A stretch of DNA of 64,000 nucleotides, from assembly GCA_033807695.1 (NCBI GenBank), contig CM066309.1, positions 2,790,001 through 2,854,000 on the forward strand, in the 5' to 3' direction. Positions 8,479 through 26,562 of this stretch are shown here, piece after piece. Each line of letters starts with the position of its first letter. Within the stretch, counting starts at the first letter, position 1. The notes beneath the pieces were generated by a model, which was not told where the DNA came from, made no database searches, and saw only the letters and a program-made list of their open reading frames with translations. A program made the position numbers and the translations under genes. The DNA comes from Daedaleopsis sinensis (lineage: Eukaryota > Basidiomycota > Agaricomycetes > Polyporales > Polyporaceae).

Positions 8479-9739
8479 TGATGTGCCCCCTAGCGGTGCC
8501 AGCTCCGATTTTCGCACCATTGTCGATACCGACAATGTCTACAACATACCCACTACAGAGCTTCAGCCTTTGCCATACTACCTGGTCCGCGCGAGCGTAC
8601 ACCCTTCGACATGCAGAGACCATAGCAGGCGAGCAAGCACCCTTCTGACGCCTTCGACCCGCCCGTGATGGAGCCTGGATGTCCTCTTCCCGCCTCAGCC
8701 ATAGAGGACCCTAGCTGCCCCTCCATTACAGGTTCGTGCCATGCATGAGGACAACACACCAGCCATTCCCTTCCTCCAACGCGCAGAGGCGGTAGTAGAC
8801 AAGTGCACCTTTCATTGGAGACCGCCCCTTCCGCAGATGCATGCAGTAGCTTCTCCGAGCCCCATTTCCTTCGACATCTCCCACCAGTAGCCTAGAGGCT
8901 GGATGCTTCGGCCTGGACGACTACATCAACACACGCTGGATGAGTGATCAGCCTACACCGATGTGCGATGGATTACGGTACAGCGAGGCTAGGCGCTCCT
9001 ACGAGGATGACTACGTGGATGTACAAGGGACATATAGCCAGGCTCAGTGCTGCTACATCTACGTGCGTGTCATGCTGTTGTCTCTTCCTCTTTACGTGCA
9101 CGATGTCTACGTACGTACCGTGTTGTAGGCACAGCGCTTACTTAGTGTATATTTTCCATGTATTTAGGATATTTAGTTAGATAGCTCCCATACTTACCGC
9201 TCGCTCGAGCGCCATTCCTCTTCCTTAGCTTACCGTAGTACCATCACCTTCCCTGCCATCTGGCGACCCTTCCTCTTCGTGTGGAGCGGCTCGGACCCTC
9301 CCTTCTCTGGCTCTGTGACCCAGCACCCTTCTTCCTCCTTCTCTGCAATCGAGCGATCTTTCCCCCTTCTTCCCTGCGACCCCGTAGCCTTCTGACTCCC
9401 TTCGACGACGACATACGGTAGTGACGTGTCCCCACTACGGCGAGCCGACGATGCAGGCGATCCCCCATCCCCCATATCCATACGGAGGCAGGCCTTCTAC
9501 GAGACGGACAAGACGATCCCATTGTTAGGCTGGATGTTGGTACGATCTCCTTCGTGCTCTGCTCGCTGTGTGCCCGGTGTTCGAGTTCTGTCTTCCTCCT
9601 ATGCTTGACGTGCGCGTCTCGACATCGTTGTTCGTTCCAGCTGCTCGGGAACCAGAGGTCCACCTCGCACCCTTCGGAGAGTCTGCCCGGTGTTGTATCT
9701 GCTGGGTTTTCCTAGTAGATCGCCGGTGCCCTCCCATCA
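8479..9739 (+). repeat. Right (3') LTR of element 1
   Basis: 1261-bp direct repeat of 4266-5523 with a few substitutions and a 3-bp indel, ending CCCATCA and followed by TCGC. Confidence 0.9.
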
Positions 9740-10431: not shown

Positions 10432-11392
10432 TGATGGGAGGGCACCGGCGATCTACTAGGTAAACCCAGCAGACACAACACCGGGCAGACGCTCCGAAGG
10501 GTGCGAGGTGGACCTCTGGTTCCCGAGCAACTGGAACGAACAACTACGACGAGACGCGCACGTCGAAGGCCGGAGAGCGAGGGATCGAGAAGGGGACAGG
10601 GAACTACGACGGGCGGAGCACGTGGAAGGACGGGGCTCGAAGGAGATCACACCGAGGACGGGCTCGACAGCGAGGTCGTCGAGTGCGTCGGACCGCTGGG
10701 CTCGCGCCTGTATGGATATGGGGGATGGGGGATCTGAGGCTACAAGTCCTCTACGCGGGCATCCTATCTACTGCTACCGTCCCGTGCGGTACCTCGAACC
10801 TCGTCCAATCCGGAGCCTCCAGCGTGGTCCGCCCGCTCGTAACCCTCTGCCCTACTCTCCAGTGCCTCCTGAAACTACCTCGAACCCGCCTTGTCGCAGT
10901 TCCGCGAGGAGGCGGAACCGTGGCTAAACCCTCGGCCTGGGCGCCAGTCGGGTCCTACCGCCTGGTCTCGTAGAACGGTCAGGAACGGCTACGCCTGGAC
11001 CCCTGCACCGCCGCCTCCGCCTGCGACTAGCGTGTCATCGGTCCCGCACGATGCCTGTAACCTAAACTGCGGCCCGCTCTGGTCTCGGGTGTCGGAGCGG
11101 TCCTCAGGCTGCTGCCCAGCCTCCTGCCGGGGCTGCGGGGAACACTCGCAAGCCTCCTACGGGCGCGGCCCGTTGGAGGGAAGGGCGTCGCGCCCGTTGG
11201 AGGCCGGAGGCCTCGCGCGCTGCGTGGGCCGCATGAGGCGTCCCCTCCGACCGCCTTGTCGGAGGGATGTGGTGGTCCTGGAGTGGGAGGTCGAGGGCAG
11301 GGACTCCGTCCTGGCCAGCGTGTCGTAGTAGGCATCGCCGTATATCGGCGATGGCGCGAAAAGCGGGGCTGGCGCCACTACGGGGCGCATCA
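10432..11392 (-). repeat. 3' LTR of element 2 (left copy)
   Basis: 961 bp. It matches 23299-24259 at a constant offset of 12867, with no difference noticed by eye. Open frames inside it are not genes. Confidence 0.92.
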
Positions 11393-11429
11393 TCTCCCCC
11401 CAACTGAAATCGGGACCGTCCCCGGTCCC
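11393..11429 (-). other. Distal polypurine tract and hairpin of element 2
   Basis: On the minus strand: hairpin GGGACCG-GGGA-CGGTCCC (11429-11412), a short ATTTCAGTT spacer, then GGGGGGAGA abutting the LTR. This is the expected plus-strand primer site for the 3' LTR. Confidence 0.75.
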
Positions 11430-11438
11430 TCTGCGTGG

Positions 11439-11445
11439 TATAAAG
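11439..11445 (+). promoter_or_regulatory. TATA box of antisense gene A
   Basis: TATAAAG lies 41 bp upstream of the gene A start codon and just beyond the hairpin/PPT module. It faces opposite to element transcription. Confidence 0.5.
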
Positions 11446-11485
11446 GGACGGCAGTTTGGACTGACGGGCTTCCTCCACCTTGACC

Positions 11486-12107
11486 ATGAACGGAACTCCC
11501 ACCCGTGACGCCTTCCCGAACCTCCGCGCGCAGCCCTTCCCGAGCAGCCCGTTGGACCCGGACATGCTGGCCCGTGCGCACGCGCTGGCGGCCCGACAGC
11601 TCGAGCGCGCCGTTGTCGAATTCGAGGTCCTAGCCGATGCGGGGTCCGAGGGGCAACTGCCGGGCGTGGAAACCGAGCTGGTCGCCCTGGCCGACATGGT
11701 GGTGAGACGCCCTCCGTCCGCCTCCCTCTAGCCACGCCTGACGTAGTCCGTAGGGCGCGCTTGCCCTCGTCGGCGCCTCCGCTTCCGTCCTGGCCGCCTT
11801 CATTGCTCGCGTCGAGAGAGCCACCCTGGACGGCTGGCGTGATTTCGGCCGTGATGCCTTCCTCACCTTCCAGAACCGTGTGGCCTCCGACCGCCGCCTT
11901 CTTCGCATCGACCAGGTCGTGACCCAACGTGCCATCGCCCAGCGGTCCCTGGTTGAACTCCGTACCCTCCGCCGTACCGCCGACCGCGCCGAAGGGGAGG
12001 GGATCCTTCTCGCGCTTGCGCTTGACGAACGAATCCGGGACCTGGAGGCCGAACGGGAGACCCTCAACGCCGAGCTGTCCGCCCTGCGCGGCCATAACTA
12101 CTTCTAG
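11486..12107 (+). CDS. Antisense gene A: helical protein of unknown function
   Basis: Not recognised. Exon 1 is 11486-11701 (72 codons), the intron is 11702-11753 (52 nt, GTGAGA...CTGAC...TAG, phase 0), and exon 2 is 11754-12107 with a stop at TAG, giving about 189 residues. The protein is rich in Ala, Leu, Arg and Glu, with long predicted helices; the C-terminus (DERIRDLEAERETLNAEL) has coiled-coil heptads. The ATG follows GACC. The gene is transcribed against the retrotransposon, so its intron would not be spliced from the genomic RNA. Its layout matches genes B and C. It may partner them, but nothing in the sequence shows a function. Confidence 0.6.
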
Positions 12108-12329
12108 GTGGCCGGCCACGCGACCCGCGGGAGGGGGGTGGTGGTGCTTCGTACGTAGTGATCGCCGCTGCCGTGTCCGCCTTCCTGTAGGGTCCCTGCC
12201 CGTCTTGCTAGAGTAGGGCCAGGGGGTACATCGTGCTTCTCCGCTATTGCTGCCGTCTCGTGTTCACCAGTCCGTGGGTCGCCCGCATCGACTGTCGGTC
12301 CTACGCACGCGCGCTGTCGTCTCGTGTTC

Positions 12330-12592
12330 ATCAGTCCGTGTGTCGTCCGCATCGCTCGCCAGTCCGTGTATCGTTCGCTTCGCTCGCCAGTCTGTGTATC
12401 GCCCGAATCGCTCGCCAGTCCGTGTATCGCCCGAATCGCTCGCCAGTCCGTGTATCGCCCGAATCGCTCGCCAGTCCGTGTATCGCCCGAATCGCTCGCC
12501 AGTCCGTGTATCGCTCGCTTCGCTCGCCAGTCCGTGTATCGCTCGAATCGCTCGCCAGTCCGCGTGTTGTTCGCTTCGCTCGCCAGTCCTGC
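12330..12592. repeat. 28-bp minisatellite between genes A and B
   Basis: About nine tandem copies of a 28-bp unit containing CGCTCGCCAGTCCGTGTATC, alternating CCCGAAT and CGCTT variants. It falls in the A-B intergenic interval, inside element 2. Confidence 0.85.
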
Positions 12593-12814
12593 GCGCGCGT
12601 ACCGTAGTACCTTGTGCTCCAGCCCGTTTATCGCCCTGGTCCCGCCCGTTTCATCCTCGTGCGCCGACGGAGAAAGGGGGCGCGCGGGCTCAGTTCCCCC
12701 CTAGTTCCCGTCGGGACGAGACATGGCGCCGCCAGAACGATGTGCCAGCGCCGCCTTGCTGAGTCGGGGCCGTGGTCTGGGCGCCAGGCCTCCCCCCCCC
12801 TGAATGGCGTGGCC

Positions 12815-12823
12815 CATAAAAGG
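12815..12823 (+). promoter_or_regulatory. TATA-like box of antisense gene B
   Basis: CATAAAAGG about 70 bp upstream of the gene B start, after a C-rich stretch. Confidence 0.4.
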
Positions 12824-12892
12824 CCTCCACGCGGCCGGGCGGGCGGTAGCTTCGTGCCCTGCGTCTCCTCGCCCGCCTACTCGCCGACGCAC

Positions 12893-13599
12893 ATGCCGGT
12901 TCGGTTGCGCCCTCTGTTCGAGCTCTCGAACTCCCATCGGGACTTCTACCATTCTTACACCGCCACCATACTGAGTCGCTTCCTTCGCCTCCTCGATCGG
13001 ATCGAGACGAAGGCTGCCGCTGGTGACGTCGACGGGCCCGGGCTGTCGGACCTGCTCCAAGAGATCGGGCCTGTATTAGTACGCGCTCCGAACTTGTGAT
13101 CCGTCGCCCAGAATGGGAACTGAATTCCCCGTTTTAGGTGGCCTGGTGCGCGCTTCACGACGGGGCTCCAACCGTCCTTCGTCAGGACCTGCACCGTGTA
13201 GCTGCAGCGTTCGCCCGATTGCCAGAGGGCGAGCGTCTTGAGGCCGAATTCGACAACGCGGTGATGGACGTCGTAGACCCCATCCGCGACCAATACCTCG
13301 TCGTGGCGCGCGCGTACGTCCAGTACCAGCGTCTGGTCCTGAACGCAGTGGAGTCCCAGCTCGCGGACCCTGTACACGAGATCGCGACCTCCGCGCGGCT
13401 GCGCACGTTGGAGGCGGAGACCGATCTACTTGTCGCGGAGGTGGAGCGGCGCGAGGCGTTACAGTTGAGGGTCGCGGCACAGCGCGCGAGGCAGGCGGAA
13501 TTGGGGGCTCCGGGCGTAGTGACAGCGGAGGCGGTCGCCGCGGAAGCCGAAGCCGTAGGGGGCGCACCGGATACCATAGTAGTCGACGAGGAGTTTTGA
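12893..13599 (+). CDS. Antisense gene B: helical protein of unknown function
   Basis: Not recognised. Exon 1 is 12893-13078 (62 codons), the intron is 13079-13137 (59 nt, GTACGC...TTTTAG, phase 0), and exon 2 is 13138-13599, giving about 215 residues. Helical segments flank the intron; the second half (ARLRTLEAETDLLVAEVERR) is a strong coiled-coil candidate, followed by an Ala/Glu-rich acidic tail ending DEEF. Length, intron phase and helix content parallel gene A and the N-terminal part of gene C, so the three are probably diverged duplicates. It lies about 200 bp upstream of gene C in the same direction. Confidence 0.6.
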
Positions 13600-13801
13600 G
13601 GCAGTCCGTAGGAAGAATAGAAGCGTTCCGGCAGCGCGCGCCGGGTCCGTCCCGGCGTTGTTTTGTAAACAGAGACGAGGGGAAGTTGATGGGCCCCTGG
13701 GCCGTACGTCCTTCCTTAAAATGTCGCGCCCTTCGTGGGTTCTTCTTTTGCGTGCGCGTCTTCGTTCCTCTCTCTCTCTCCTACCTCTTCTCGCCGCCGC
13801 C

Positions 13802-15812
13802 ATGTCCCCCTCGGCCACTCCTTCGTCCGTCACGCTCCCTACGGTCCCTCCTTCGTCCGTTTCCCTCGTACCCGACCCAGGCCCCGAGCCTCCGCTTACC
13901 CAACGCGTCCCGAAGTCGGCCTCCCCTACACCCTCGGTTGCCGCTGAGGAGGCTGCGGACTTCTTTGCCAACACTGGCGCGGAGGAGTTGGCGCGAATGG
14001 GGGAGGCGGAGGCCCGGAAGGCCATTGACCGCGCTCTCGAGTGCATGGTACGCCCCGTTGGTTCGTTCGCCATCCGTGCCCGACTGCTAACCTCGGCTCT
14101 ACCAGGACCAGCTGGAGTTCGACAGCTTGGGCGAGGCCGACGGCTCCTTCGCCCCGTTCCTCGAGGCCAGTAAAAGGGTCTTCGACGCGTCCGACGCGTA
14201 CGAGGTCGTGCTGGAGTACACCACGCGGTCCCGGGCCCGTGCCGTCGCCCTCTTCGCGCAGCGCGTCGCTTCTGAGACTCACGCCGGCAGGCTGCGCAAC
14301 GCGCGCCGGCTCCTGTTCCTCGCTAAGTGGGAGCAGCACGAGTGTGCGCTCCTGGGCGACTACCGCAAGCTTCCGCGCGTCCCGCCGGCGGACGTCCAAG
14401 CCCTTGCCCACCGTGCCGCGCGCGGAGAAGACGTTGCCGCCCCGTGGATTGTCCCCGCTTCACCGCCGCCCGAGGAGGAGGGGACCGCCTCTCCCGCCGT
14501 CGCTGTCGGGCCGGGCCTCACGCCGGGGGACGCCACCCCCTCCGCTGCCGTCGACCCCGTGGAGCTCGACTCCTTCCTCGAGTCCCTCACCCTCCCGCGT
14601 CAGACCCCTGTCCCTGTCGAGGCGGACGACGATGCGGCTCCGCTCGCCTCTCCCTTCACCCCCACGGCTCCAGTGAAGCGTACGCGCGCCCAGCGTGAGG
14701 CGGAGCCTGAGCCTGGGGCCGTCCCCCTCACCCTTCCGACCCCCCCCGCTGCTGCTCCTTCCGCTACGCCCGGGGACGGACGGGTTACTCGACGGTCCGC
14801 CGTTCGCCAGACCACGCTCCCCGCTGCGCCGAAGGGTCGGATCACCACCACCGGTAAGAAGACCGGCTCGACCCCCACGCCCGTCGTCAACAACATGGGG
14901 GAGGTCGCGGCGACCGTCTGGATCTCTGGGCCGTGCGACAAGTGCGCGGCTAGCGGACGTCCGTGCACCAAGGCCAACCCCAACGGTCTCCGCTGCGACC
15001 GGTGCGCGAACCCGCCCACGCACAAGGCGGCCTGCATGTACGGCGGGCTGTCCACGACGGGCGAGTTCAAGTCCGCGACCAACGCCGTGCTCGGTGTCTA
15101 TAACGGCGCCGGGTTCGCGCTGAGGTCGAACAGCCGCGAGCCCCACACCACTCTCCAGGCCATCCGGGTCGCGCGCGATTTCGAGAAGAGCGGCCGCGAG
15201 ATTCGGGTCCTCGACCAGGCCGCGCTGCAGGGGCGGCTCTTTCACCGGAGTGACCACCTGACGCTGATCGGGACCGCCAAGGGGCCTACTCCCTACCCCC
15301 CGCCCGAGCAGCTGAAGGAGCTGGCCGTCGCTTGCGCTACCTCGCAGGCCGTCAGCGCCGCCATGGCGGGGGACGGGCGCGCGCCTCCTGACGCCGAGGT
15401 GGTCGAGATCTCCGAGGACGAGGACGAGGCCCCTCCTCCCAAGAAGGCCCGCGTTTCCTCCGCAACGAAGGCCGGGTCCGGCGCGGTGGACAAGAAGAAG
15501 AGGCCCGTCGCCTCCGCGTCGTCGTCCGGGAAGGCGCGTGCCGGGACCGAGGTGCTCCCCAAGGAGGAGTTCGAGCCGTTCGACCTGGACCTCGCGCGGG
15601 AGGGTCGCGAGCGGGCGAACTTCCTCGTCGAGCAGATCTGGGCGAACGCGCGGGAGCTCGTCGGTATCCGCCGTCGCGAGCAACGCCTCTCCGGGGAGCC
15701 GTTTGGGAGCGACTTCGCGCCCGGGCTGCCCGAGGTGGTGTCGTTCGCTGACAAGTTCAGTAGCGACCCCAACGCCGCCGTCCTCCGCGCGGTCTTGAAG
15801 GAGGACGCGTGA
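13802..15812 (+). CDS. Antisense gene C: protein with Zn2Cys6-like cluster
   Basis: Exon 1 is 13802-14047 (82 codons), the intron is 14048-14105 (58 nt, GTACGC...CTAAC...CTACCAG, phase 0), and exon 2 is 14106-15812, giving about 650 residues. The start ATG sits in a good context (GCCGCCATGTCC); the frame is also open upstream to 13658. The order is: helical N-terminus, long Pro/Thr/Ala-rich linker, and a cysteine cluster at about 14936-15035 with spacing C-x2-C-x6-C-x9-C-x2-C-x9-C, close to the Gal4-type fungal zinc cluster. After that come an acidic EISEDEDEAPPPKKAR stretch with a nuclear-localisation look and a C-terminal helical region. DNA binding is inferred from cysteine spacing only; basic residues between the cysteines are fewer than in classic Gal4 domains. 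A long open frame on the opposite strand (15860-14460) lacks any domain and is judged a shadow. Confidence 0.68.
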
Positions 15813-16315
15813 TCGTCGGGCGAGTGGTCGCCTCGTAGGCCCCCTCTTGGACTTCTGCATGCTTGATTCGTACGCGTGGGCCCCCCGTTCTTCTCGTCAT
15901 GTTCTCTCCGTGGACTTCTCTCGGCGCTCGCGCCCTCATCGCCTCGCCTCCTCTTCCCTACTATACCTCCAATCCCTAATCCTGTCCCTCCTCTCGCCCT
16001 CGCGTCTCTCTCTTTTCATCGTTCCTTCTCGCTCGTCGCTGTCGTCGTCGTCGCTTTGTACGCTCCGGAGCCTACGCTCCCGTATATACCGCTGGTCCTT
16101 CTGGTCGCGCTTGCTGTAAGTCCGCTTTCTTGTACGCTTGGCCCGGAATGCATCGTCGTCTGGTCTCCGTCTCGTGTCGCGTGTAGCTCATAGTCTAGTT
16201 TCGTGGAAGGGAGAGTTGAATTGATTGTTGGTAAGGGAGTACAAGTGCGAGTCGGTGTGCTACACAGGCCTGGTGTTGAAGCGCTCCTTCCTCCTGCGCG
16301 CGTTGTCGCCGCCGT
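15813..16315. other. Non-coding stretch between gene C and pol
   Basis: Convergent 3' regions of gene C (+) and pol (-). It is pyrimidine-rich (long TCTCTC/CTTC runs). No convincing gene is seen. Confidence 0.5.
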
Positions 16316-16352
16316 TCTCCCCCCAACTGAAATTGGCTCCCTCCTGGGGGCC
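16316..16352 (-). other. Proximal (second) polypurine tract and hairpin of element 2
   Basis: Directly after the pol stop, on the minus strand: a GGCCCCC-AGGA-GGGAGCC stem (16352-16335, one G-T pair on the other strand), an AATTTCAGTT spacer, then GGGGGGAGA (16324-16316). Layout and spacing match 11393-11429, but the stem bases differ and pairing is kept. Confidence 0.65.
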
Positions 16353-16360
16353 CGGCCCAC

Positions 16361-19300
16361 TCAGTCTTCCTCGTCTTGCGTGTCCTGAGGTTCGCCGCGG
16401 TCGTCGTAGTCGTCCTCGTCCTGCTCCATCTGGGCGACGCGGTCACGTGACACGTCTAAGTCGGACAGGTCGAACGCGATCAGCTCTTCGCGCGCGAGGT
16501 AGGGGAGCAGTCGGAATGCGGCGACTGGGCGGTCGTGGACCGCTCCATCCAGCTCCGCCACGATGTAGGCCCCTCCACGGTTCCTAGAAACCACCACCAG
16601 TGGTCCCAGGTATCGCGGGCGCATCTTGCGGTTGAGGGACTTCTCGATCGCCGTGTTTCGGATGAGGACCAGCCGCCCGCGCGCGAAGTTGTAGTCGCGT
16701 ACCGTTCGCGCGTGCAGGCGTTCGAACTCTTGTGCCGCGTGGACCCTCGCGCGATAGACTCGCGAGCGTAGCTTCTCAAGTTGCTCTGGCCGTTTCTGCA
16801 GTGCCACCGCGCGCTGCGCGATGAGGTCCGCCGTCGATAGGAGCTCCGTCGGCGTTGGCATGAGGTAGGTAGCTTCAGCGATGTCGAAGGGTAAGATAGC
16901 CTGCGTCCCGGTCACTGCGAAGTAAGGGGAACACCCCATCCGGCGCCGCGTGGTTACGCGGTCCGCCCAGAGCACTGAGTAGACTCTAGACACCCACTCG
17001 CTCTGCGCGTCGTCGAAGCAAGACTTGAACAGGGCCTCCCTGACGTCGACATGCGCGCGCTCCACGATTCCATTCGCGCGCGAATTGTAGCCCGAAATCC
17101 GGATGTGCTTTACGTGATATTGTCGCTCCAGATGCTCGAGAGCCGCGACGAAGGCGGACCCGTTGTCAGACACAATCTCGGAGAGGGCGCCCCACCGGCA
17201 CAGTAGGTCCTGGTAGATCCAATCGCCCAGGGCCTTCGCGGTCTGAACAGTGGAGGCGCGACCTTCCGCATAACTCGTCGTCGCGCAGCGCGCGTGGAAG
17301 AAGTGCTTGTATCGGCCGGGCATGTCCATCGTGTCCATGTGGACGCGGACCATGGGGGGTGCGGGAAGTGCGACCGTGGGCGGGATCTGAACGCGCGAGG
17401 TCTGGCGGACCTGGCATTGGTGGCAGGACTTAACATACCAAGCGATGTCGGCCTTCATCTCGGGCCACCAGAAGCGTTCCCCCACGAATGAAATCGTCGC
17501 GGCGATCCCGCGGTGGCCGAGGTGGTCGTGTAGCGCTACCAGTACTTCCATGCGCGTGTCGGGACCCAGTACCCGTCGATGGTTCCCGTCGCGCGCGATA
17601 CGCCACAGTCGGTCGTCGCGTAGGAAGAACTGCCGCGCGTACTTCTCGAATCGCTCGCGTGCGCGTTCCGACGTCGTTGGTAGGGAACCGTTCTTCAGCC
17701 AGAGCTGGACGAGGTCTACGCGCGCGTCGAATTCTTGCGCCGCTGAGGTACGCGGGCAGGCGCTGTAGTCGGGCGGTTTGATCGCCGGCGTGGATGCGGC
17801 CGTCCCGCTGGTCTGTTGGAAGAAGGCGTCGACCTCCCGCGCCGTGCGCGGCGTGGAGTATACGATGGGTGCGTCTGGCAACCGCGGTGGTAGGTTCACG
17901 AGGTGGAGGAAGCCGTACATGTTGTCGATCCAGTCGTCGAACTCCTCGTTCTCCTCTTGGTCGCCTTCTTCGTCCCCGGGTTGTCGGACGCGTCGGCTGA
18001 GTCCGTCAGGTCCGTGCAGTACCCCAGGAACGTGACGTAGCTCGAAGTGAAACATACTGATCGCGATGATCCACCGGTTCATAACTGCGCTAGGCGCGAT
18101 GTCCGGGTTCTTCAGCATGTCGCGTATCGCCGTCGCGTCGATCTCGACTACTAAGTTCCGGACGCCCACGAGCCAGAGCTTCATCGCGCGGAGCGCGCGG
18201 AACAAGCCGTACAGCTCCAGTTTGGGCTGCGAGAAGCGCGCTTCGCGGTCGTTCAAGGTAATCGACCCGAAACGGCTGTAGTAGCGTCGGCGGGGGTCGT
18301 CCCGGTCTTCTTGGCATAGCAGGTAGCCGACTGCGATCTTCGACGTGTCGACGGCGAGGATGACTGGCGCGTCGTCCTCGTAGTCGATCGCTCGGAGCGC
18401 CGGGGAGTGGGCTAGCGCCGACTTGAGGTCCTCCATCGCGCGCACCTGGTCGGGCCCCCATTCGAACGGCGCGTCCTTCCGGAGCAGCTTGTTGAGCGGG
18501 TTCGCTATCTTCGCGAAGTCCTTGATGAAGATGCGCGCGACTCCAACCGTACCCAGGAACGCGCGCACGTCGGAGACCGTCTTACATACTGTCCAGTTGA
18601 CTACGGCCTGTACGCACTCCGGATCCGCCACGCGCCCTTCCGGGGTGCATCGGCTTCCGAGGGCGCCAAAACGCGGGGGCGCAAAGCGCGACTTCTTACC
18701 GGAGAACGTACCTCCTGCGTGCTTGATGCGCTGAATGATACGGTTGTCGTTCCGCAGCTGTTCCCAGACGAAGCGCCGGACTCCGGGGTTTTCGGGGATG
18801 CATTCGGGAGTTCCGTCCTCCAACAGGTACGCGCTCTTCGGGCCCATGACGAAGACGTCGTCGATGTAGTTTGCTGCGTGGTCCGGCATCTCCGGCTGGA
18901 GGATGAACGCGATGTCGTCGTGGAAGATAGGTACGGAGTTCGTCCATCCCATGGGCAGCGTGGTAAGCCGCATCGCGCCGAACGGGGTCTGGAATGTCGT
19001 GAGGTCACGCGAGTCGGGATGGATCTCCCGCTCGTCGTAGCCGACGTAGAGGTCGAAGGTCGAGCCACAGGGGCGCCCTCCGAACTGCTCCGCGATGTGC
19101 TCCGGTACGGGGGGAACTCCGCTGTGTTGGATCGTGATGCGGTTCAACGGCTCGAGCGAGTGGACGATGCGCAACTTCCCGTCCTTCTTGAGCACGCAGA
19201 ACCACCGCGTGCGGTACGACGCGTTGGACGGCTCGTACACGCCATTGTCGATCTTCTGCTTGATCATCTCGAGGAGCACGCGGAAGATGCCAGGGGGGAC

Positions 19301-20092
19301 GGGAGCGTTTCTTTCATTGTAAGGAACGTGGTCGACTACCGCGAGCCGTACAGGAGGAAACATATCTTGGCGGAAACGACCGCGCTCGGACTCTTCCCAT
19401 GCGAACGCGAGCTCCTGTTTGCACATGAGGTCGTGTAGGACGCGTAGCTCCTCCGGTGACAGCCACTCCCGGTGGATTTCGTCGATCAGGTCGTGTCGTT
19501 CCTGGGTGTACCTCCCGGTCGGCTTGAAGGGGGGCGGATTCGCATCGAGCTGGGGCATGTTTTCGAGGGGGTCGCCGACGCGGTTCCGCACTATCCGGAA
19601 GTGTTCCGGGAGGTGGCTCGCTACCGGACGTACTTTCTTTGCGACCGGCTTGTACTTCTTCTTCGTTTTCGCGTAGACTTCGATGGATTCTTCAGGCCAA
19701 GCGCGCGCTCGCGCCTGGCCGGTGGGGGACGCGCTTCGTGCGCCAAGGGGAGTAGGGCGACGGCCCAGCGATTTTGTCGGTCGAGAGGGGTACGCGCGCG
19801 CGCGTACGTAGTATGGGTGCGACTCCTGCGGAGCCGCTTTTGGGGGTCGAGGTTCTGGACCAGGCCCGGGGGCCTTCGCCGACGCGGTATCGAACGACGA
19901 CGGTACTTCAGACGGAGAGAGCGGAACGGAGGAAACGAAGGAAGCAGAGGCAAAAGCGTTGTTGATTTTTGTAGATGTTTCGGGGTCATCGGTCGCGAAT
20001 AGATAGGCGTGCTGAATCGTTTCGGGGCTGGTATCTTCGAGTTCGGCGTACGAGGTCAGGTCCAACTGGCCCGTCGTGTGGTCGTACTCCAC
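16361..20092 (-). CDS. pol: Ty3/gypsy Pol: reverse transcriptase, RNase H, integrase
   Basis: At least 1243 residues. RT spans about residues 260-450, with FDLYVGYD near 345 and the catalytic YIDD near 409-412. RNase H starts near 575 (VILAVDTSK). The integrase HHCC zinc domain is near 853-892 (HDHLGH...CHQCQ) and the DDE core follows, with HMDTMDMPG, SDNGSAF and the Glu of IVERAH at about 918, 974 and 1010. A C-terminal region ends in an acidic tail (DEED). The frame is offset -1 from Gag-protease and stays open upstream past 20092 to overlap the end of that frame. No classical slippery heptamer was seen in the zero frame near 20125-20150, so how it is expressed is unclear. No internal stop was found, consistent with an active element. 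Confidence 0.92.
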   Translation of the reverse strand: MEYDHTTGQLDLTSYAELEDTSPETIQHAYLFATDDPETSTKINNAFASASFVSSVPLSPSEVPSSFDTASAKAPGPGPEPRPPKAAPQESHPYYVRARAYPSRPTKSLGRRPTPLGARSASPTGQARARAWPEESIEVYAKTKKKYKPVAKKVRPVASHLPEHFRIVRNRVGDPLENMPQLDANPPPFKPTGRYTQERHDLIDEIHREWLSPEELRVLHDLMCKQELAFAWEESERGRFRQDMFPPVRLAVVDHVPYNERNAPVPPGIFRVLLEMIKQKIDNGVYEPSNASYRTRWFCVLKKDGKLRIVHSLEPLNRITIQHSGVPPVPEHIAEQFGGRPCGSTFDLYVGYDEREIHPDSRDLTTFQTPFGAMRLTTLPMGWTNSVPIFHDDIAFILQPEMPDHAANYIDDVFVMGPKSAYLLEDGTPECIPENPGVRRFVWEQLRNDNRIIQRIKHAGGTFSGKKSRFAPPRFGALGSRCTPEGRVADPECVQAVVNWTVCKTVSDVRAFLGTVGVARIFIKDFAKIANPLNKLLRKDAPFEWGPDQVRAMEDLKSALAHSPALRAIDYEDDAPVILAVDTSKIAVGYLLCQEDRDDPRRRYYSRFGSITLNDREARFSQPKLELYGLFRALRAMKLWLVGVRNLVVEIDATAIRDMLKNPDIAPSAVMNRWIIAISMFHFELRHVPGVLHGPDGLSRRVRQPGDEEGDQEENEEFDDWIDNMYGFLHLVNLPPRLPDAPIVYSTPRTAREVDAFFQQTSGTAASTPAIKPPDYSACPRTSAAQEFDARVDLVQLWLKNGSLPTTSERARERFEKYARQFFLRDDRLWRIARDGNHRRVLGPDTRMEVLVALHDHLGHRGIAATISFVGERFWWPEMKADIAWYVKSCHQCQVRQTSRVQIPPTVALPAPPMVRVHMDTMDMPGRYKHFFHARCATTSYAEGRASTVQTAKALGDWIYQDLLCRWGALSEIVSDNGSAFVAALEHLERQYHVKHIRISGYNSRANGIVERAHVDVREALFKSCFDDAQSEWVSRVYSVLWADRVTTRRRMGCSPYFAVTGTQAILPFDIAEATYLMPTPTELLSTADLIAQRAVALQKRPEQLEKLRSRVYRARVHAAQEFERLHARTVRDYNFARGRLVLIRNTAIEKSLNRKMRPRYLGPLVVVSRNRGGAYIVAELDGAVHDRPVAAFRLLPYLAREELIAFDLSDLDVSRDRVAQMEQDEDDYDDRGEPQDTQDEED

Positions 20093-20121
20093 GACGAGGG
20101 CGAGATCTCCCTGACTGTCAG

Positions 20122-22746
20122 TCAGATCCTCGAAAGAAGAAACCCCAGGGGGGACTTCTTCGGCTTGGCCTTCTCGCTGCGCGTACGCGCCGGCGGCTCG
20201 CCGCGCGCGTACGTGGGCAAGGTAATCGTACTATGCGTGTTCGGACAGGTGATCGTGATGGACTGTCGGCCGTCGAGTTCGTTGTTGACCTTCATCGCTG
20301 TGAGCAGCTCGAAGGGGCGCCCCATCAGGACATCGAAACTAGCATGCTCGACCACCTGCATCTGGAGATAGACGATGAACCCATCTGCGACCTCGAGTGG
20401 AACGTGCCGCGCCATCCCCAGGGTTGTGTCCGATGTTCCGTTTGCGCTGACCATGTTCAGCCGGGCGGTCGGGTCGTACGCGATTTTGAGGCGATGACAG
20501 TGCTCCACGCTGATCGAGATGGACTGCGACCCGGAGTCGAGGACGCACTCCGTAGTGAGGTCCGTCGCGCCTAGGAAGCCGTAGATCGACCGGAGAGGGG
20601 CTAGTGGCTCTGCAACGATGAGGTCTTCGCCCTGGATTGTCTCGACGCGCGAGTGCAAGGGCGCGCGCGCGCGCAGGTCGTCGTCTTCGTCTTCAACCTC
20701 CTCTATGGTCGTACGAAAGCAGTGGGTCTCCCCCTCCTCTTCGGGAAGCGCATCGTAGAACTCTTCTCCTTCCTCCTCGTCCGACCATTCCTCGTCCTCT
20801 TCGTCCGGGCTCCAGGGCCACGCCTGCTGTACCATCGATTGCGCGACTTGAAGTCTGGGCTCGGGTGCCGCCCTCGCCGGCTCCGCAGCTTGTGCCGTTA
20901 CCTCGCGCGGCGCAGGAGGGAGTTGCGTTCCTTCCACTGCCTGGCGCGCGGCGTAGACACGCCTTGGCGAGGTCGCCTCGTGTACGTACTTGCGAACTTC
21001 CGGGGAGATGCTGACGAGTTCTGCCGGGGACACCATGACCCGCTGCTCCTTCCCGAAGGCGCGCTCGAAGACGCGACGGCCGGCGGTTGGGTCGACAAGT
21101 ACCGGGGTTGGTCTCGGAGGGTGCGTTACCGTCTCCGTCCCCGCGCGCGGCGCAGGTTGAAGGGATGCCGGGGCGGTCACTGATGGGTTCGACTCCGTCT
21201 TCTTCGTGACGGGCGGCGCGAGGTCGCCTGCATTCGTCGCGTCTCGTGCCCTGGCGTAAGGGTGCTCCTGCGCGCGAAGCTCGGGGCCTACTAGCGGGCC
21301 TGCTGGCGACCCCGCTCTATCTCCCGCCGGCGCCAGGTGAGGAGGCAGGTCGCGGCCCCCGCGTGCTTCACGGGGTAGGTCCACCGTGGCGTCCTGAGGG
21401 GCATGGGCCTGGTTCCGGCTCTCGTCGATGCGGACCGCCTTCTTCCGCGCGGGCAGTTCCACCCCGTCGAATTGTAGCTTTCCCTGGCTGCGCGTCGCGA
21501 CGCGGTGCTCCAACATGGACGCCTGATGGCGGAGGCTATCGATCCGATCCTGGATATCCGTGACGTTCGTCGCGCCTTCTAGCATGTTGGACTCCACCGT
21601 GACCATCATCTGTGCGGCGGCGGCCTGGACCTTCTGCCCTGGGTTGTGCTCGTGCCAGTTGTGCACGCGGTCGCGCATGGTGAGCCCTGGCCAGGTACGG
21701 GGTACTTCGTTGCCGTTCGGAAGGACCATGTAGCCGCGCTCGTTGCGGATGACGAGTCCGTTCGCCGCGTCCTCCGCGAAGGCCGGGCAGCGTCGCGAGT
21801 GACAGTTCTCCTCGTTACAATAGAAGCAGGGGGGACGCATGTAGCCGTACTGGTTTTGTGGCATACGCGGAGGCATGGGCGGAGGTAGGTTTGCGGCCGC
21901 GGGCTGAGCTGCTGCCGGCGCGAGTGGAGGAGGTACAGCCTGTGGCGGGCGCGCTGCCAGGAGATTCGTCCAACCGCGCGTGAGGTCGCGGAGATCGCGG
22001 AGGTCGCGCTCGTAGTTCTGGATCTGCGATTGGAGTGTCTCGATCGTCGGCTCGGGCTTCACCGGTTGTCCTCGGCGCTCGGTGCCTGCCGCTGGTGCGG
22101 GGGCGGGGTACGTCGGCGGCACGCGGGCTTCGAGCGCGCGCGGGATCCCTTCGAGACTGTACGTGATTGCTTCGTGGACGTCCGCGAGCGGGTACGAATC
22201 GTCCCTATGCTTGTTCGGATGCTTCAGGTTGAGGTAGTTGTCGACCTTGTCGCGTACGAATACGGGAGCAACGCGAAGGAGGTCATCGACCCCTTCCGGT
22301 CCGGAGACCTCGGCCGTGGGCTGCTTCGTGGAGAGGTACTTGTAGCGCGGGAAGAATTGCCGATAGAAGGCGAGGTATTCGGGGAGGGAGCGGATTCCGG
22401 AGGCGAGGGTCGAGTCTATCAGGGAACGGTACTCACGTCGAGTGTAGACATGGTCTTTGTCGGAGCCGACGTAGAACCCTAAGACTTCCTCCTTGAGGTC
22501 CTCCCACGTCTTGCTCGCGTCGTCGAAGGTGTCCAGTAGTGCCCATGCCTTAGCAACGTCCGGAGGGACGTAGAGGGTAACCGCACCCTTCTTCTGATCA
22601 GCGAGGTCGGTCACGGAGTTCTGCGCGTAGAGTCGATCGAGATCTTTGAAGAAGAGCTCCACGTCGTCGCGGGTGGTATCAGCCTCTTTCCACACGGGCG
22701 CCTGCCGGCTGTTGCGCGCAGGGAGTGCGTCGAGCGGGGAGGCCAT
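20122..22746 (-). CDS. gag: Ty3/gypsy Gag with fused aspartic protease
   Basis: 874 residues from an ATG (MASPLDALPARNS). The N-terminal ~250 residues are a retrotransposon Gag capsid-like region (VELFFKDLDRLY, WEDLKEEVLGFY). A Pro-rich linker leads to a cysteine knuckle near residue 310 (CFYCNEENCHSRRC, a variant of the CCHC spacing). A long Pro/Ala and acidic linker follows, then a retropepsin domain with catalytic DSG (CVLDSGSQS) near 740 and the flap/partner motif VLMGRPF. The stop is at 20122, 30 nt before the first annotated pol codon. The product would form the virus-like particle and mature Gag and Pol. The frame is intact. Confidence 0.88.
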   Translation of the reverse strand: MASPLDALPARNSRQAPVWKEADTTRDDVELFFKDLDRLYAQNSVTDLADQKKGAVTLYVPPDVAKAWALLDTFDDASKTWEDLKEEVLGFYVGSDKDHVYTRREYRSLIDSTLASGIRSLPEYLAFYRQFFPRYKYLSTKQPTAEVSGPEGVDDLLRVAPVFVRDKVDNYLNLKHPNKHRDDSYPLADVHEAITYSLEGIPRALEARVPPTYPAPAPAAGTERRGQPVKPEPTIETLQSQIQNYERDLRDLRDLTRGWTNLLAARPPQAVPPPLAPAAAQPAAANLPPPMPPRMPQNQYGYMRPPCFYCNEENCHSRRCPAFAEDAANGLVIRNERGYMVLPNGNEVPRTWPGLTMRDRVHNWHEHNPGQKVQAAAAQMMVTVESNMLEGATNVTDIQDRIDSLRHQASMLEHRVATRSQGKLQFDGVELPARKKAVRIDESRNQAHAPQDATVDLPREARGGRDLPPHLAPAGDRAGSPAGPLVGPELRAQEHPYARARDATNAGDLAPPVTKKTESNPSVTAPASLQPAPRAGTETVTHPPRPTPVLVDPTAGRRVFERAFGKEQRVMVSPAELVSISPEVRKYVHEATSPRRVYAARQAVEGTQLPPAPREVTAQAAEPARAAPEPRLQVAQSMVQQAWPWSPDEEDEEWSDEEEGEEFYDALPEEEGETHCFRTTIEEVEDEDDDLRARAPLHSRVETIQGEDLIVAEPLAPLRSIYGFLGATDLTTECVLDSGSQSISISVEHCHRLKIAYDPTARLNMVSANGTSDTTLGMARHVPLEVADGFIVYLQMQVVEHASFDVLMGRPFELLTAMKVNNELDGRQSITITCPNTHSTITLPTYARGEPPARTRSEKAKPKKSPLGFLLSRI

Positions 22747-23278
22747 GGTGGGTACAGTCGCTGCAGGAGGAAGCAGGGGAATCGGGGCGGTCGATTGGGA
22801 GGGTTGCTGTGCGGGCGGCGGCGGAGGTGCAGTTGTACGGCGGGATGCGCTGGACGTAGGGGGAACCCGAGGTGCCGGGGGTGCTACGCTAGGGAAGGGA
22901 GCTCGTGGAGTCGGTTCTCTACCAGCTCGTCGTACGGCGGAGGCGGTGGGAGCGTCGAATCCGGGGGCGACCGCAGTCGCAGCAGCTCTTCGCGAGTTCT
23001 GTGTAGTCCGCGGGGCCGGGACGCGCGGCGGGACGGAGGTGGATGTGCGGCGAGCGCGAGAGGTGGCAGGAGGTACTGGCGCGGGGTGGTCCTCCGTCTC
23101 GGGAAGCTCGTCGAGATCGGTCAGAGGAGAGGCACTGCGCTGGGAGACGGGCCGGGGTTCTTCCGTGGGCGGCGGTCGAGGAGGGCGGGAGCCGGACGTG
23201 GTGCTTCGGGTGCGTGCGGGGTCAGGGACCGGTCGTAGCGTAGGTTGCAGCTTGACCTCAGAGGTAGCAGAGAATATC
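22747..23278 (-). other. 5' leader of element 2
   Basis: About 530 nt between PBS and the Gag start. It is purine/pyrimidine-skewed with no convincing gene. The PBS-proximal part matches the element 1 leader. Confidence 0.6.
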
Positions 23279-23298
23279 CCCTCGCGGTGGGCTCCAAG
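23279..23298 (-). other. Primer-binding site of element 2
   Basis: On the minus strand, TGGAGCCCACCGCGAGGGG follows the LTR by 2 nt and is identical to the element 1 PBS. The implied U discriminator of the primer tRNA suggests tRNA-Cys. Confidence 0.7.
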
Positions 23299-24259
23299 TG
23301 ATGGGAGGGCACCGGCGATCTACTAGGTAAACCCAGCAGACACAACACCGGGCAGACGCTCCGAAGGGTGCGAGGTGGACCTCTGGTTCCCGAGCAACTG
23401 GAACGAACAACTACGACGAGACGCGCACGTCGAAGGCCGGAGAGCGAGGGATCGAGAAGGGGACAGGGAACTACGACGGGCGGAGCACGTGGAAGGACGG
23501 GGCTCGAAGGAGATCACACCGAGGACGGGCTCGACAGCGAGGTCGTCGAGTGCGTCGGACCGCTGGGCTCGCGCCTGTATGGATATGGGGGATGGGGGAT
23601 CTGAGGCTACAAGTCCTCTACGCGGGCATCCTATCTACTGCTACCGTCCCGTGCGGTACCTCGAACCTCGTCCAATCCGGAGCCTCCAGCGTGGTCCGCC
23701 CGCTCGTAACCCTCTGCCCTACTCTCCAGTGCCTCCTGAAACTACCTCGAACCCGCCTTGTCGCAGTTCCGCGAGGAGGCGGAACCGTGGCTAAACCCTC
23801 GGCCTGGGCGCCAGTCGGGTCCTACCGCCTGGTCTCGTAGAACGGTCAGGAACGGCTACGCCTGGACCCCTGCACCGCCGCCTCCGCCTGCGACTAGCGT
23901 GTCATCGGTCCCGCACGATGCCTGTAACCTAAACTGCGGCCCGCTCTGGTCTCGGGTGTCGGAGCGGTCCTCAGGCTGCTGCCCAGCCTCCTGCCGGGGC
24001 TGCGGGGAACACTCGCAAGCCTCCTACGGGCGCGGCCCGTTGGAGGGAAGGGCGTCGCGCCCGTTGGAGGCCGGAGGCCTCGCGCGCTGCGTGGGCCGCA
24101 TGAGGCGTCCCCTCCGACCGCCTTGTCGGAGGGATGTGGTGGTCCTGGAGTGGGAGGTCGAGGGCAGGGACTCCGTCCTGGCCAGCGTGTCGTAGTAGGC
24201 ATCGCCGTATATCGGCGATGGCGCGAAAAGCGGGGCTGGCGCCACTACGGGGCGCATCA
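23299..24259 (-). repeat. 5' LTR of element 2 (right copy)
   Basis: 961-bp direct repeat of 10432-11392. Confidence 0.92.
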
Positions 24260-24263
24260 CCGT
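24260..24263. repeat. Target-site duplication, right (element 2)
   Basis: CCGT, matching 10428-10431. Confidence 0.75.
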
Positions 24264-26278
24264 CCCGGCAGAACACACCGGAGCACCTCACTCCTCGCAC
24301 TCATGAAATCTCTGTCGCCCCTCAAGTGCAGTCATTTTCGAGTGACGACTTATGGCGAACGCTGGAGACTCCTCCGAACGCTCTCATCACGAGCACGCCT
24401 GCCAGTACTCCCTCCTTGGCGTTTCCGGAACTGCCAATCGGCACCGAGCATGCCACCCCCCCCTCCGTCAACCTGGCACCACTCTCGCATGCAACCCATA
24501 AACGACCTGTCCCTCTCTCACCGTCGATCACCATGGACGAGCGAGTTGTCCGTCGTCGATTGACATCCCCAACGCCCCTTACGTTATCCTCTATGAATCC
24601 CTGGACGACGTCCCGCGCTGAACCTGCGAATTCAGCAGCGACCGTTTCGCCAAACCCCGCCAGTACTGTAACCGCTGTTCCTGCTACGCACGAAACCCCG
24701 AATGACTCCATTCGTCAACCGCTGTCAAACGGCGACCCCCAGAGCACCTCCCCGATGCTCATCGACGACCTGCTGCCTGGCATGGACAAAGGGAAGGGAC
24801 GCGAGACCATCCTGACTACGAATTGCGGCCCGGACTGTCACTGCTCAATCTGTCGCCGACAGCAACGGATTGAATACACGCCCTTCCCCGTCAGCCAACA
24901 CAATCAGTCTCTTCTTGCGCGTTTCGCTATGAGCTCCACGGCTCATCCTGACCGACCGGCCCCGTCCTCCTCCCGCGAACGAGCACCCTTGAGTGACTCG
25001 GTGCTTGATCCTTTCACTATGCCTCCCACAATGGCCGATGCTCCCCTCCCTCCGCAGCCCCCAGTGGCAGGATGGCAATCCACAGCGCGGCAGCTCACCA
25101 ACGAACCGCACGCGCGCCGTGCAGACACACCTTTTCCCAGCGTCCGAGCCATCGCAGAGTCGCTCCCTGATCGATACTCCTCCCAAATCTTCCCTGCTGA
25201 TACCACTTTCCTCCTCCCAACGCCCATCGAACACGACATCCCGAGCCTCGCTAGTCATGGTCTACTGGATCGCCCGACTGCTGCTCCCCTGACTGGTTGG
25301 CCGACCCTCCATCGAGAGGACCCAGAAGCTAGCCTCCATGGCCTCAGTGCAACCTGGGTGTCCAACATTTGGGCTGCGGCCTCTGACTCCGTTATCCTCG
25401 TTGAGCCGTTCAACCCTCACTACACCACCGCGATTTGGCAGAACCGCCACACTGCGGTAGCAATTAAAGGAGCCGTCGCTTCCATCATCGGTCACTCTAA
25501 CTTTAAGGTTGTTCCGCCGGAGATCACGCATGGTCTTAACCCTGCTAGTCGCGATGCGCCCACCCTGTGGGCGGTGCGCGGCCTCGCTGCCTCCGAAACG
25601 CACACCCTAACTTCTGGCCGAGTCTGGTCTTTTCGCTCCATCTCGTTCTTCGCGTACCCACGCGCGGTCTCCATCCCCACATGGCTCCTCTCCTTAGAAG
25701 GTTTCGTCGACGATAACCAGCAAGACATCGAACATACTATCGCCTCCGTTCTACGCTCGCCTACCAGCTATGCTCAAATCTTAGCTATGGTCACGGGCAA
25801 CCCGGACTTTCAGAACGAGAACGCCCACGATGCAACGCGCCGCATTCTCTCCACACTCACAGTCCGTGTCATAACCCTGCAGAACGGCAACCTGATCGCC
25901 AACGTCTTCATGACCCCCCCGACGCGCAGCATCCGCCAGTGGCGACAATGGACGGCCGCACTCCGCACTATGCGCTTTGGTATCTACCTCACGGCTACTG
26001 CAACGCCGCGCACGATCACCCATTGCCTTGGCTGTCGCGGCGTGGACCATCCCACCCACCTCTGTCCATTCCCACTCGTCCCGGGATGGAATGGACCCTC
26101 GGCTGGATCAGGATCCCATACGGCCGCCGAGACGACTTCCAACTCCTCCTTCCCCACCTCCCCTCCATACGTCGATTTCGCGCGCCCCACACGTGAGTCC
26201 ACGCGCGCCCTACCCCGACGAGGAGGGAGGGGAGGTAAACGTGGTGCCCCGAGAGGTCGAGGGCTACCTCCTTTCTAA
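24260..26278 (+). pseudogene. LINE ORF1, 3' part with CCHC knuckle
   Basis: The open frame continues from the right edge of element 2 to a stop at 26278. It has a Ser/Thr/Pro-rich first half, a short Cys/His stretch (CGPDCHCSICRRQQ) near 24826-24870, a globular segment (SATWVSNIWAAASD...), and a perfect CCHC knuckle CLGCRGVDHPTHLC near 26024-26066. It ends in an Arg/Gly-rich basic tail (RRGGRGGKRGAPRGRG). This is a nucleic-acid-binding LINE ORF1 protein, broken by the element 2 insertion. The natural start is at 10081 on the far side of element 2. Confidence 0.72.
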
Positions 26279-26562
26279 CTTTGTATCGCGCCTGCCCCAC
26301 ATGTAAACGCTGATGCAGTGTCTGCCTCTGTACATGTGGAAGAACACGAGTTAGTTAATATACTAACCCTACGGGGGATAGGACCTAACTTGTGCGATTC
26401 GGGCTCTCCTATTCAGGGGTGGACTAAGCCCAGCCGCAGCCCGGCTGAAGCGACTCACTGAACGCTGATCGGTCACTGCGCAGCCACCAGTGCCTCGCCC
26501 GTCCCCGTGGAAGTGTCGGAGACACTCCTTGAGCAGAGCTATGGTTGTTACTCTGCTGACAC
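26279..26562. other. LINE inter-ORF region
   Basis: About 280 nt between the ORF1 stop and the point where the ORF2 frame opens. No gene is seen. How ORF2 would be started is unclear: the first in-frame ATG is at 26872, inside the endonuclease domain. Confidence 0.5.

Follow-up and report, generated by a model that had tools for sequence, protein, structure and literature searches.

What is the role of intron-bearing genes that run in reverse orientation inside a retrotransposon? A 64,000-nucleotide stretch of the genome of the polypore fungus Daedaleopsis sinensis (C10:2790001-2854000, hereafter the window) raises this question through a minus-strand Ty3/gypsy element, A1, which spans window positions 10432-24259 (13,828 bp in total) and carries three genes, g1, g2 and g3, on the opposite strand between pol and its 3' long terminal repeat (LTR). 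An earlier annotation made from the letters of the window alone (the sequence-only reading) had noticed the element and its antisense genes; our analysis, which searched the whole genome (51.6 Mb in 24 contigs), confirms that observation and supports its interpretation. We report that the three genes evolve under protein-level selection, keep introns at matching places and recur in several related families of elements. A selected cassette in several related families suggests an accessory toolkit for the element itself. Our preferred reading, to which we give a probability of about two in three, is a self-encoded accessory module composed of a nuclear regulator, g3, and two small partners, g1 and g2.

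Three antisense genes and their recurrence in related families

The distance from the pol stop codon to the 3' LTR of A1 measures 4,968 bp, in agreement with the 4.9 kb estimated earlier. This region of about 5 kb holds three plus-strand genes, opposite to the element, each preceded by a TATA-like box:

11486-12107, plus strand: g1, exons 11486-11701 and 11754-12107, 189 amino acids
12893-13599, plus strand: g2, exons 12893-13078 and 13138-13599, 215 amino acids
13802-15812, plus strand: g3, exons 13802-14047 and 14106-15812, 650 amino acids
11439-11444, plus strand: TATAAA, about 45 nt upstream of the g1 start, found by eye and without a chance estimate
12815-12822, plus strand: TATA-like CATAAAAG, upstream of g2, found by eye
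13716-13722, plus strand: weak TATA-like TTAAAAT, upstream of g3, found by eye

The introns lie where the sequence-only reading had put them (11702-11753 in g1, 13079-13137 in g2 and 14048-14105 in g3), run from GT to AG, contain branch-point-like text when read by eye, and measure 52, 59 and 58 nt, none of them a multiple of three. Splicing in silico joins open frames of 189, 215 and 650 amino acids; only the start of g3 needed correction, to 13802. Without splicing, g1 and g2 meet stop codons within their own introns, and exon 1 of g3, read on through its intron, loses the correct frame and meets a stop at 14173.

The cassette recurs across the genome. A pol search identified seven copies of family A, including the one in the window (98-100% identity), three of family B (92%) and at least 27 further copies at 63-64% identity that make up family C; a search with a pol fragment of a fourth family, D, found at least 34 family C-like copies and at least six D copies. 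Among the pol copies listed, g3 lies antisense downstream of pol in 7/7 A, 3/3 B and 6/6 D copies, while g3 accompanies 31 and g2 29 of the 34 C-like copies, as counted from the coordinates of last-exon g3 matches, three further exon matches and g2 exon-2 matches. The nearest g3 exon stands 2.21-2.26 kb from the reverse transcriptase (RT) match in 30 of these 31; of the three C-like copies that have no g3, two have shortened pol frames and one is 3.4 kb from a contig end. An antisense extra open reading frame (ORF) between pol and the 3' LTR (aORF-3R) is conserved in most copies, and the copies with the same cassette inside related elements that the sequence-only reading had called for do exist. 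The full order g1-g2-g3 was read only in A1, A6, B1, C5 and C2; g1 was seen in the sequence of these five, of D1 and, in part, of D2. Family D has g1 and g3. Frames are mostly whole where they could be followed: g3 in A1-A5, with A6 open over the length of exon 2, and g2 in the six family A copies that could be spliced, one of which (A2) differs at one base of the intron.

In A, B and C the first introns of all three genes sit at corresponding phase-0 positions, as do those of g1 and g3 in D, where placement was made by hand. The g3 of family C has two additional introns; that of D needs further introns as well, one of them near the second of C. Between A and B, intron lengths differ in g2 (59 and 57 nt) and g3 (58 and 52 nt), and intron 1 of g3 measures 53 and 55 nt in two C copies, the spliced frames staying open throughout. 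Lengths that vary in this way, both from family to family and from copy to copy, while splicing still yields open frames are what one would expect if the introns are removed. The earlier proposal that introns survive retrotransposition when carried in antisense fits this pattern, found among families whose pols are about 63-92% identical. Boxes read by eye also recur: they precede all three genes in the copies of B and C that were read (at g1, boxes that match; CATAAAGC in B and GTATAAAG in C upstream of g2; CTATAAGG in B and TTAATAAA in C upstream of g3), and in the D copy one was noted at g1. Antisense transcription and splicing of the three genes can be inferred from these features.

Do the frames encode proteins that matter? 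Nei-Gojobori estimates of the ratio of nonsynonymous to synonymous rates (dN/dS) between A1 and B1, with bootstrap intervals, give 0.123 (0.072-0.197) for g1, 0.145 (0.091-0.212) for g2 and 0.401 (0.322-0.491) for g3, next to 0.105 for gag and 0.053 for pol; comparisons of A or B with C are near silent-site saturation and were excluded. The ratio near 1 that would have spoken against functional genes did not occur. Shifted forward frames reach 1.55-3.76 (g1), 1.65-2.52 (g2) and 1.09-1.68 (g3), and two of the three reverse frames 1.07-3.27. Changes by codon position number 30/17/80 in g1, 36/28/97 in g2 and 241/198/337 in g3, the third position carrying the most in each.

Chance ORFs in GC-rich DNA were considered and ruled out by the dN/dS of true against shifted frames; together with the conserved intron positions and the recurrence in other families, these ratios show that the genes are not chance. 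The same data bear on the proposal that the antisense RNA itself is the product, acting through double-stranded RNA or copy-number control, with the frames a by-product of GC-rich sequence. Reviews do discuss LTR elements, including Ty1, that antisense RNAs may hold in check, but true-frame ratios of 0.12-0.40, introns that conservedly join frames and the concentration of changes at third positions leave us giving this explanation very little credence.

Element anatomy, paired polypurine tracts and a cassette-free family

A1 is apparently an intact, recently inserted Ty3/gypsy element with the following parts, among them two polypurine tracts (PPTs):

23299-24259, minus strand: 5' LTR (element sense), 961 bp, 100% identical to 10432-11392, with TG..CA ends
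23279-23296, minus strand: primer binding site (PBS) TGGAGCCCACCGCGAGGG, 2 nt inside the 5' LTR
20122-22746, minus strand: gag-protease ORF, 874 amino acids, open, 88% identical to family B
16361-20092, minus strand: pol ORF, RT-RNase H-integrase, 1243 amino acids, open
16316-16333, minus strand: PPT2, the second polypurine tract, an 18-nt exact copy of PPT1 that starts 27 nt past the pol stop codon
12304-12617, no strand assigned: 28-bp tandem repeats between g1 and g2, eight registered copies
11393-11410, minus strand: PPT1 ATTTCAGTTGGGGGGAGA (element sense), adjoining the 3' LTR
10432-11392, minus strand: 3' LTR, 961 bp

With a 4-bp target-site duplication (TSD; ACGG in element sense), every part that the sequence-only reading had listed for an intact element is present, although at 13.8 kb "giant" was too strong a word and "large" is apt. 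The domain order RT-RNase H-integrase (Pfam positions 301-418, 545-681 and 845-1003) is that of Ty3/gypsy elements (Metaviridae), as is the combination of LTRs, TSD, PBS and PPT. In pol, RT_RNaseH_2, RT_RNaseH and Integrase_H2C2 exceed the Pfam cut-off and RVT_1 and rve fall under it; the gag-protease ORF matches aspartyl protease families PF13650/PF13975 below cut-off. A Pfam scan of pol with E up to 1 gave no Chromo match at its end, where chromoviruses including Boty-like elements have a chromodomain, and an Rfam scan of the window gave nothing at gathering score. The LTR pairs of the three elements compared (A1, B1 and C5) are identical within each: B1 is 13,765 bp long, with LTRs of 1,024 bp; C5 is about 12.7 kb long, and its repeats of 909 bp come to about 907 when counted from TG to CA. 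The PBS is identical in the A, B and C elements read, and 16 nt of its complement have 71 exact genome matches, some at D and E elements (E is described below); the gene for the primer tRNA may be among the matches outside the A-E elements.

At E 1e-3 or better, 1,128 relatives of pol were found, and Ganoderma boninense is the nearest named among the 120 listed; a pol search of viral and prokaryote contigs found no relative.

Several observations concern the setting of these copies. The right flank of A1 holds a long open frame, without a Pfam match, that starts 14 residues ahead of the insertion point once the flanks are joined, and after it, in window 24260-31698, comes a 1478-residue frame with a reverse transcriptase domain; A1 probably sits in or beside a non-LTR retrotransposon. 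Two inverted 136-bp pieces, at 5388-5523 and 9604-9739, match the LTR over its first 137 bp with 94% identity. Just left of the window, at C10:2778084-2787070, lies a second family A copy with a 100% identical pol, inverted and about 23 kb from the window pol, a pair that could promote inversions. The three TSDs read (window, C12 and C5 copies) are 4 bp with a central CG (ACGG, ACGT and CCGG, the last holding once the LTR start is set at TG), possibly a target preference. The C5 copy (C5:4314700-4330700) lies within a tandem array of units of about 196 bp, and the family D copies at C4:1834405, 1850414 and 1866423 form a tandem array with an exact period of 16,009 bp. As PBS to PPT1 spans 11.3 kb in D, this period puts the D LTRs at about 4.7 kb, if units share an LTR.

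Two PPT copies enclose the cassette in families A-D; the inner copy, PPT2, follows closely on pol. In the one copy analysed per family, PPT2 reproduces an exact run of the family's own PPT1, of 18 (A), 15 (B), 12 (C) and 12 nt (D), and begins 27, 28, 31 and 15 nt past the pol stop codon, respectively; none of 300 Markov-shuffled sequences per family matched the run length. The inner motif is identical in all seven A copies. A and B have one PPT version in common, and C and D each have another, so that the inner tract follows PPT1 across versions and both copies change together.

A further family, E, has no cassette in the copy read on C11, where a PPT lies 153 nt after pol and directly against the LTR. 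The element is estimated at about 8.3 kb from LTR and PBS positions, its LTR being found again at the 5' side, and cassette absence in a second copy, on C8, is inferred from LTR spacing equal within 3 nt. Another LTR pair on C8 is 10.9 kb apart. The PPT2 of families A-D stands near where E has its PPT. A quick-search pol tree, with SH-aLRT values as its only support, groups A, B, C and D and environmental sequences in a clade of 8 rows (support 95) and places E outside it, near an unresolved base. The simplest history is that the cassette entered beyond the old PPT, which was kept as PPT2, while a copy was made beside the LTR; for the gain itself the tree alone is insufficient.

This arrangement invites two further explanations. 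The cassette could be a second transposon nested between pol and the 3' LTR, and it is indeed a discrete block between direct PPT copies. We nevertheless find this very improbable: one block occupies one place in A, B, C and D with diverging sequence; a Pfam scan detected no transposase or integrase domain in it; its flanking repeats vary with the PPT1 of the family, which a fossil target-site duplication would not do; and searches found no clear free-standing cassette, aside from matches that have no listed pol beside them. Nor did the outcome occur that the sequence-only reading had said would undo it, copies of the family without the cassette and with an unrelated nested-element boundary: the cassette-free elements belong to another family, and the boundary is a PPT. 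The cassette could instead be a host gene cluster captured once and carried without benefit to the element, as the introns and TATA-like boxes, which resemble those of ordinary fungal genes, and the position downstream of PPT2, where an insertion would be, might suggest. This too is improbable given selection within a lineage deep enough for pol identity to fall to 63%, and given that none of the queries run against the genome, namely A g3, C g3, C g2 and D g3 (g1 was not used as a query), revealed a clear host homologue, although a few matches had no listed pol beside them.

Exchange of g3

Identity between A1 and A6 is 97-100% in g1, g2 and pol but falls to 78-85% in the first half of g3. 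There the synonymous rate (dS) is 0.52-0.68, against 0.016-0.062 in g1 exon 2, g2 exon 2 and pol, and the divergent part itself has a dN/dS of 0.10-0.25. A g3 profile search in which about 8,000 candidates sharing most words were scored returned a single relative, P0001, on a public contig, the only relative of a cassette gene known outside this genome. In the first half of g3, A6 is 94 and 89% identical to P0001 and 87 and 76% to A1, whereas in the last part it is nearer A1 than P0001. Family D provides a second mosaic: between D1 and D2, dS is 0.02 over pol codons 1-830, 0.57 over pol 831-1315, 0.59-0.68 in g3 and 0.13 in g1 exon 2. These two pairs, picked for their low-looking g3 identity, are the only ones so compared, and in both mosaics, A6 and D2, the pattern of divergence indicates that g3 is swapped between lineages by recombination.

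An alternative to our preferred reading is a counter-defence module, in which the antisense genes would leave the promoter of the element alone and act against silencing by the host (RNA interference, chromatin or meiotic silencing), with g3 being replaced because the host adapts to it. Among the three genes g3 changes fastest, it is the replaced part in both within-family mosaics, and independent promoters would permit the cassette to be read while the LTR is silent. Yet no 60-codon window of g3 exceeds a dN/dS of 1 between A and B (range 0.20-0.82): the slowest, 370-430 at 0.20, covers the second half of a zinc-cluster-like motif described below and the stretch after it, window 310-369 with the first cysteines of the motif stands at 0.57, and the linker at 181-244 is fastest at 0.82. 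Nor do the proteins show kinship to a known suppressor in Pfam. We regard counter-defence as unlikely, if worth keeping in view.

Paired PPTs and an exchangeable g3 also allow a bolder version of our preferred reading, in which a whole lineage of fungal Ty3/gypsy elements would have a divided genome: sense gag-pol, which serves copying, is combined with two or three reverse-strand, spliced and self-promoted genes between co-evolving PPTs, with g3 as an exchangeable specificity module. We advance it tentatively. If true, the inner PPT would make the accessory block a separately primed plus-strand segment, and g3 would possibly set which copies are recognized or which host silencing is escaped.

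Proposed working of the cassette and its relation to known systems

In the accessory module that we favor, g3 would be the nuclear regulator. In A and B the middle of the protein holds six cysteines spaced C-X2-C-X6-C-X9-C-X2-C-X9-C; the last loop is X8 in C, and D has a looser version with X8 in the first loop. The cysteines and the Y-X2-L-S and N-G-X-G-F that follow are invariant in the four aligned g3 rows (A, B, C and D). Spacing of this kind is the general pattern of Zn2Cys6 clusters. The protein also has an acidic, proline-rich linker and basic patches (KKARV and KRKAV; KKRKV in D), which we take to be possible nuclear signals. The zinc-cluster-like protein of the sequence-only reading therefore holds for the cysteine spacing and fails at the Pfam level, where PF00172 (Zn_clus) reaches 10.9 bits against a cut-off of 21 in the C copy (E 0.54) and is not detected in A or D. 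Both g1 and g2 are acidic and without domains; a low-confidence model of g2 exon 2, made without an alignment, is all-helix with a mean pLDDT of 66, and the two are probably small helical partners. A profile comparison relates g1 to g2 at E 7.7e-4 but only 25% probability, and comparisons of either with g3 gave nothing; g1 and g2 may be distant duplicates, and a common origin of all three is not established. We also considered and rejected an envelope-like function by hydropathy only: the genes are antisense, and the best hydrophobic 19-mers of g1 score 2.19 (A), 1.73 (B) and 1.08 (C) and are not conserved.

We propose that the lineage long ago gained a reverse-oriented accessory module downstream of its polypurine tract, comprising g1-g2-g3 in A, B and C and g1 with g3 in D, with its own introns and TATA-like boxes. 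The sense genomic RNA made from the LTR would carry the module as antisense, so that its introns would go unrecognized and pass through reverse transcription. From an integrated copy, host RNA polymerase II would read the module from its own opposite-strand promoters, the spliceosome would remove its introns, and the proteins would act in trans on the element's own life. On the strength of its zinc-cluster-like motif, basic patches and acidic proline-rich linker, g3 would most likely bind DNA in the nucleus and regulate the transcription or silencing of the element. PPT2 would most likely be a second point at which the plus strand starts, retained close to where the ancestral PPT lay; with it, the pol and cassette sides could be copied independently of each other, and it may favor the recombination around g3.

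A number of observations weigh against this proposal. None of g1, g2 and g3 has a Pfam match at cut-off, the g3 profile found no convincing relative in the PDB (three chance-level matches), and a structure model of g3 exon 2 has a mean pLDDT of 35 and is useless, which leaves the cysteine spacing and the basic patches as the grounds for a DNA-binding role. Transcription and splicing of the module are predicted from sequence features. At 0.40 between A and B, the g3 rate is loose for an essential factor, and low ratios (0.27, 0.28 and 0.61 for g1, g2 and g3) are also found in the one reverse frame with the same third codon positions, each time a weaker signal than the true frame. Between A and B, dS climbs along the element from 0.63 in gag to 1.15 in g3, so part of the between-gene difference is recombination; a cassette swap as the sole cause of the low A-B g3 identity was nonetheless rejected, since this rise is modest and g3 dN is about 11 times that of pol, which argues that faster change and recombination are both at work. 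The cassette is not intact everywhere: g2 was not found in D, the g3 frame of A7 is broken in an otherwise close copy, about 3.7 kb interrupts g3 in the family B copy on C11, and on C1 and C6 the D copies hold one TAG within the matched g3 stretch (an intron or a break). Matches to g3 or g2 without a listed pol beside them (C6:4170133, C4:3792725, C1:1330180-1331499, C10:206901 and C8:2882107) may be fragments, unlisted copies or something else. Finally, family E persists without the cassette, which shows that not every member needs it.

How does this compare with known elements? Among the closest are the Tat-type plant elements Retand, Grande gene23, RIRE2 and PvRetro13. Some plant Ty3/gypsy lineages are well established as having antisense ORFs in the region from pol to the 3' LTR, as the sequence-only reading had noted (PMC7264820; PMC11963269). 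The plant elements named resemble A1 in a long region between pol and the 3' LTR (2,933-6,566 bp in Retand, about 5 kb in A1), in ORFs antisense to gag-pol, in tandem repeats within that region in about half of them, and in antisense products that are possibly nuclear or DNA-binding (PMC11963269; PMC7264820). The 28-bp repeats of A1 at 12304-12617 recall those in the matching region of Retand. The plant elements differ in their proteins, unrelated at the Pfam level (a scan of g1, g2 and g3 found no TRP28 domain, PF04195); in A-D, two or three separate intron-bearing genes come with an inner PPT copy, and the host is a fungus.

Nearer in host are the Boty-like elements of Botrytis, whose antisense gene brtn was reported by Zhao 2011, as cited in PMC7264820, PMC11963269, PMC8365987, PMC4227169 and PMC5987419. 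By description, these are likewise fungal LTR elements with an antisense extra gene; unlike A1, they are described with a single such gene and with a chromodomain in gag-pol. HTLV-type retroviruses offer a likeness by description of gene products only, their HBZ and APH-2 being nuclear antisense accessory proteins (PMC11963269) with an antisense promoter in the 3' LTR (PMC7264820); unlike A1, those are retroviruses of animals. Extra PPTs are described for Ty1, HIV-1, Athila4/Calypso and Sireviruses, the last with several identical ones (PMC2829016), and Ty3 is reported to have no central PPT (PMC5371799); families A-D share a second PPT with the former group and differ in that the copies bracket an antisense gene cassette, the inner one near the apparent ancestral PPT place. 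Fungal Zn2Cys6 factors (PF00172) share the six spaced cysteines of g3, but the match in g3 is below threshold and confined to the C copy, D has X8 in the first loop, and the motif is mid-protein.

Antisense extra ORFs in plants and one antisense gene in Botrytis are thus already known, and several spliced ones are a variant. The sequence-only reading knew of no described fungal element with three spliced antisense genes, one of them zinc-cluster-like; a literature search of titles, abstracts and passages, incomplete in its coverage, likewise found no fungal element with several such genes. The word antisense is absent from a survey of fungal LTR elements (PMC3248453), and a legend in a survey of fungal and plant Gypsy elements (PMC2864245) mentions an additional ORF of unknown function. 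A review cites three reports of extra ORFs in fungi, which makes priority uncertain.

Antisense extra ORFs in LTR elements have so far been reported without a known role. Strong protein-level selection, conserved introns, several families with recent-looking copies in one genome, a cassette-free control and g3 recombinants make their role, origin and exchange testable here, and the paired PPTs offer a concrete hypothesis for how a large element may keep a long block that is neither gag nor pol.

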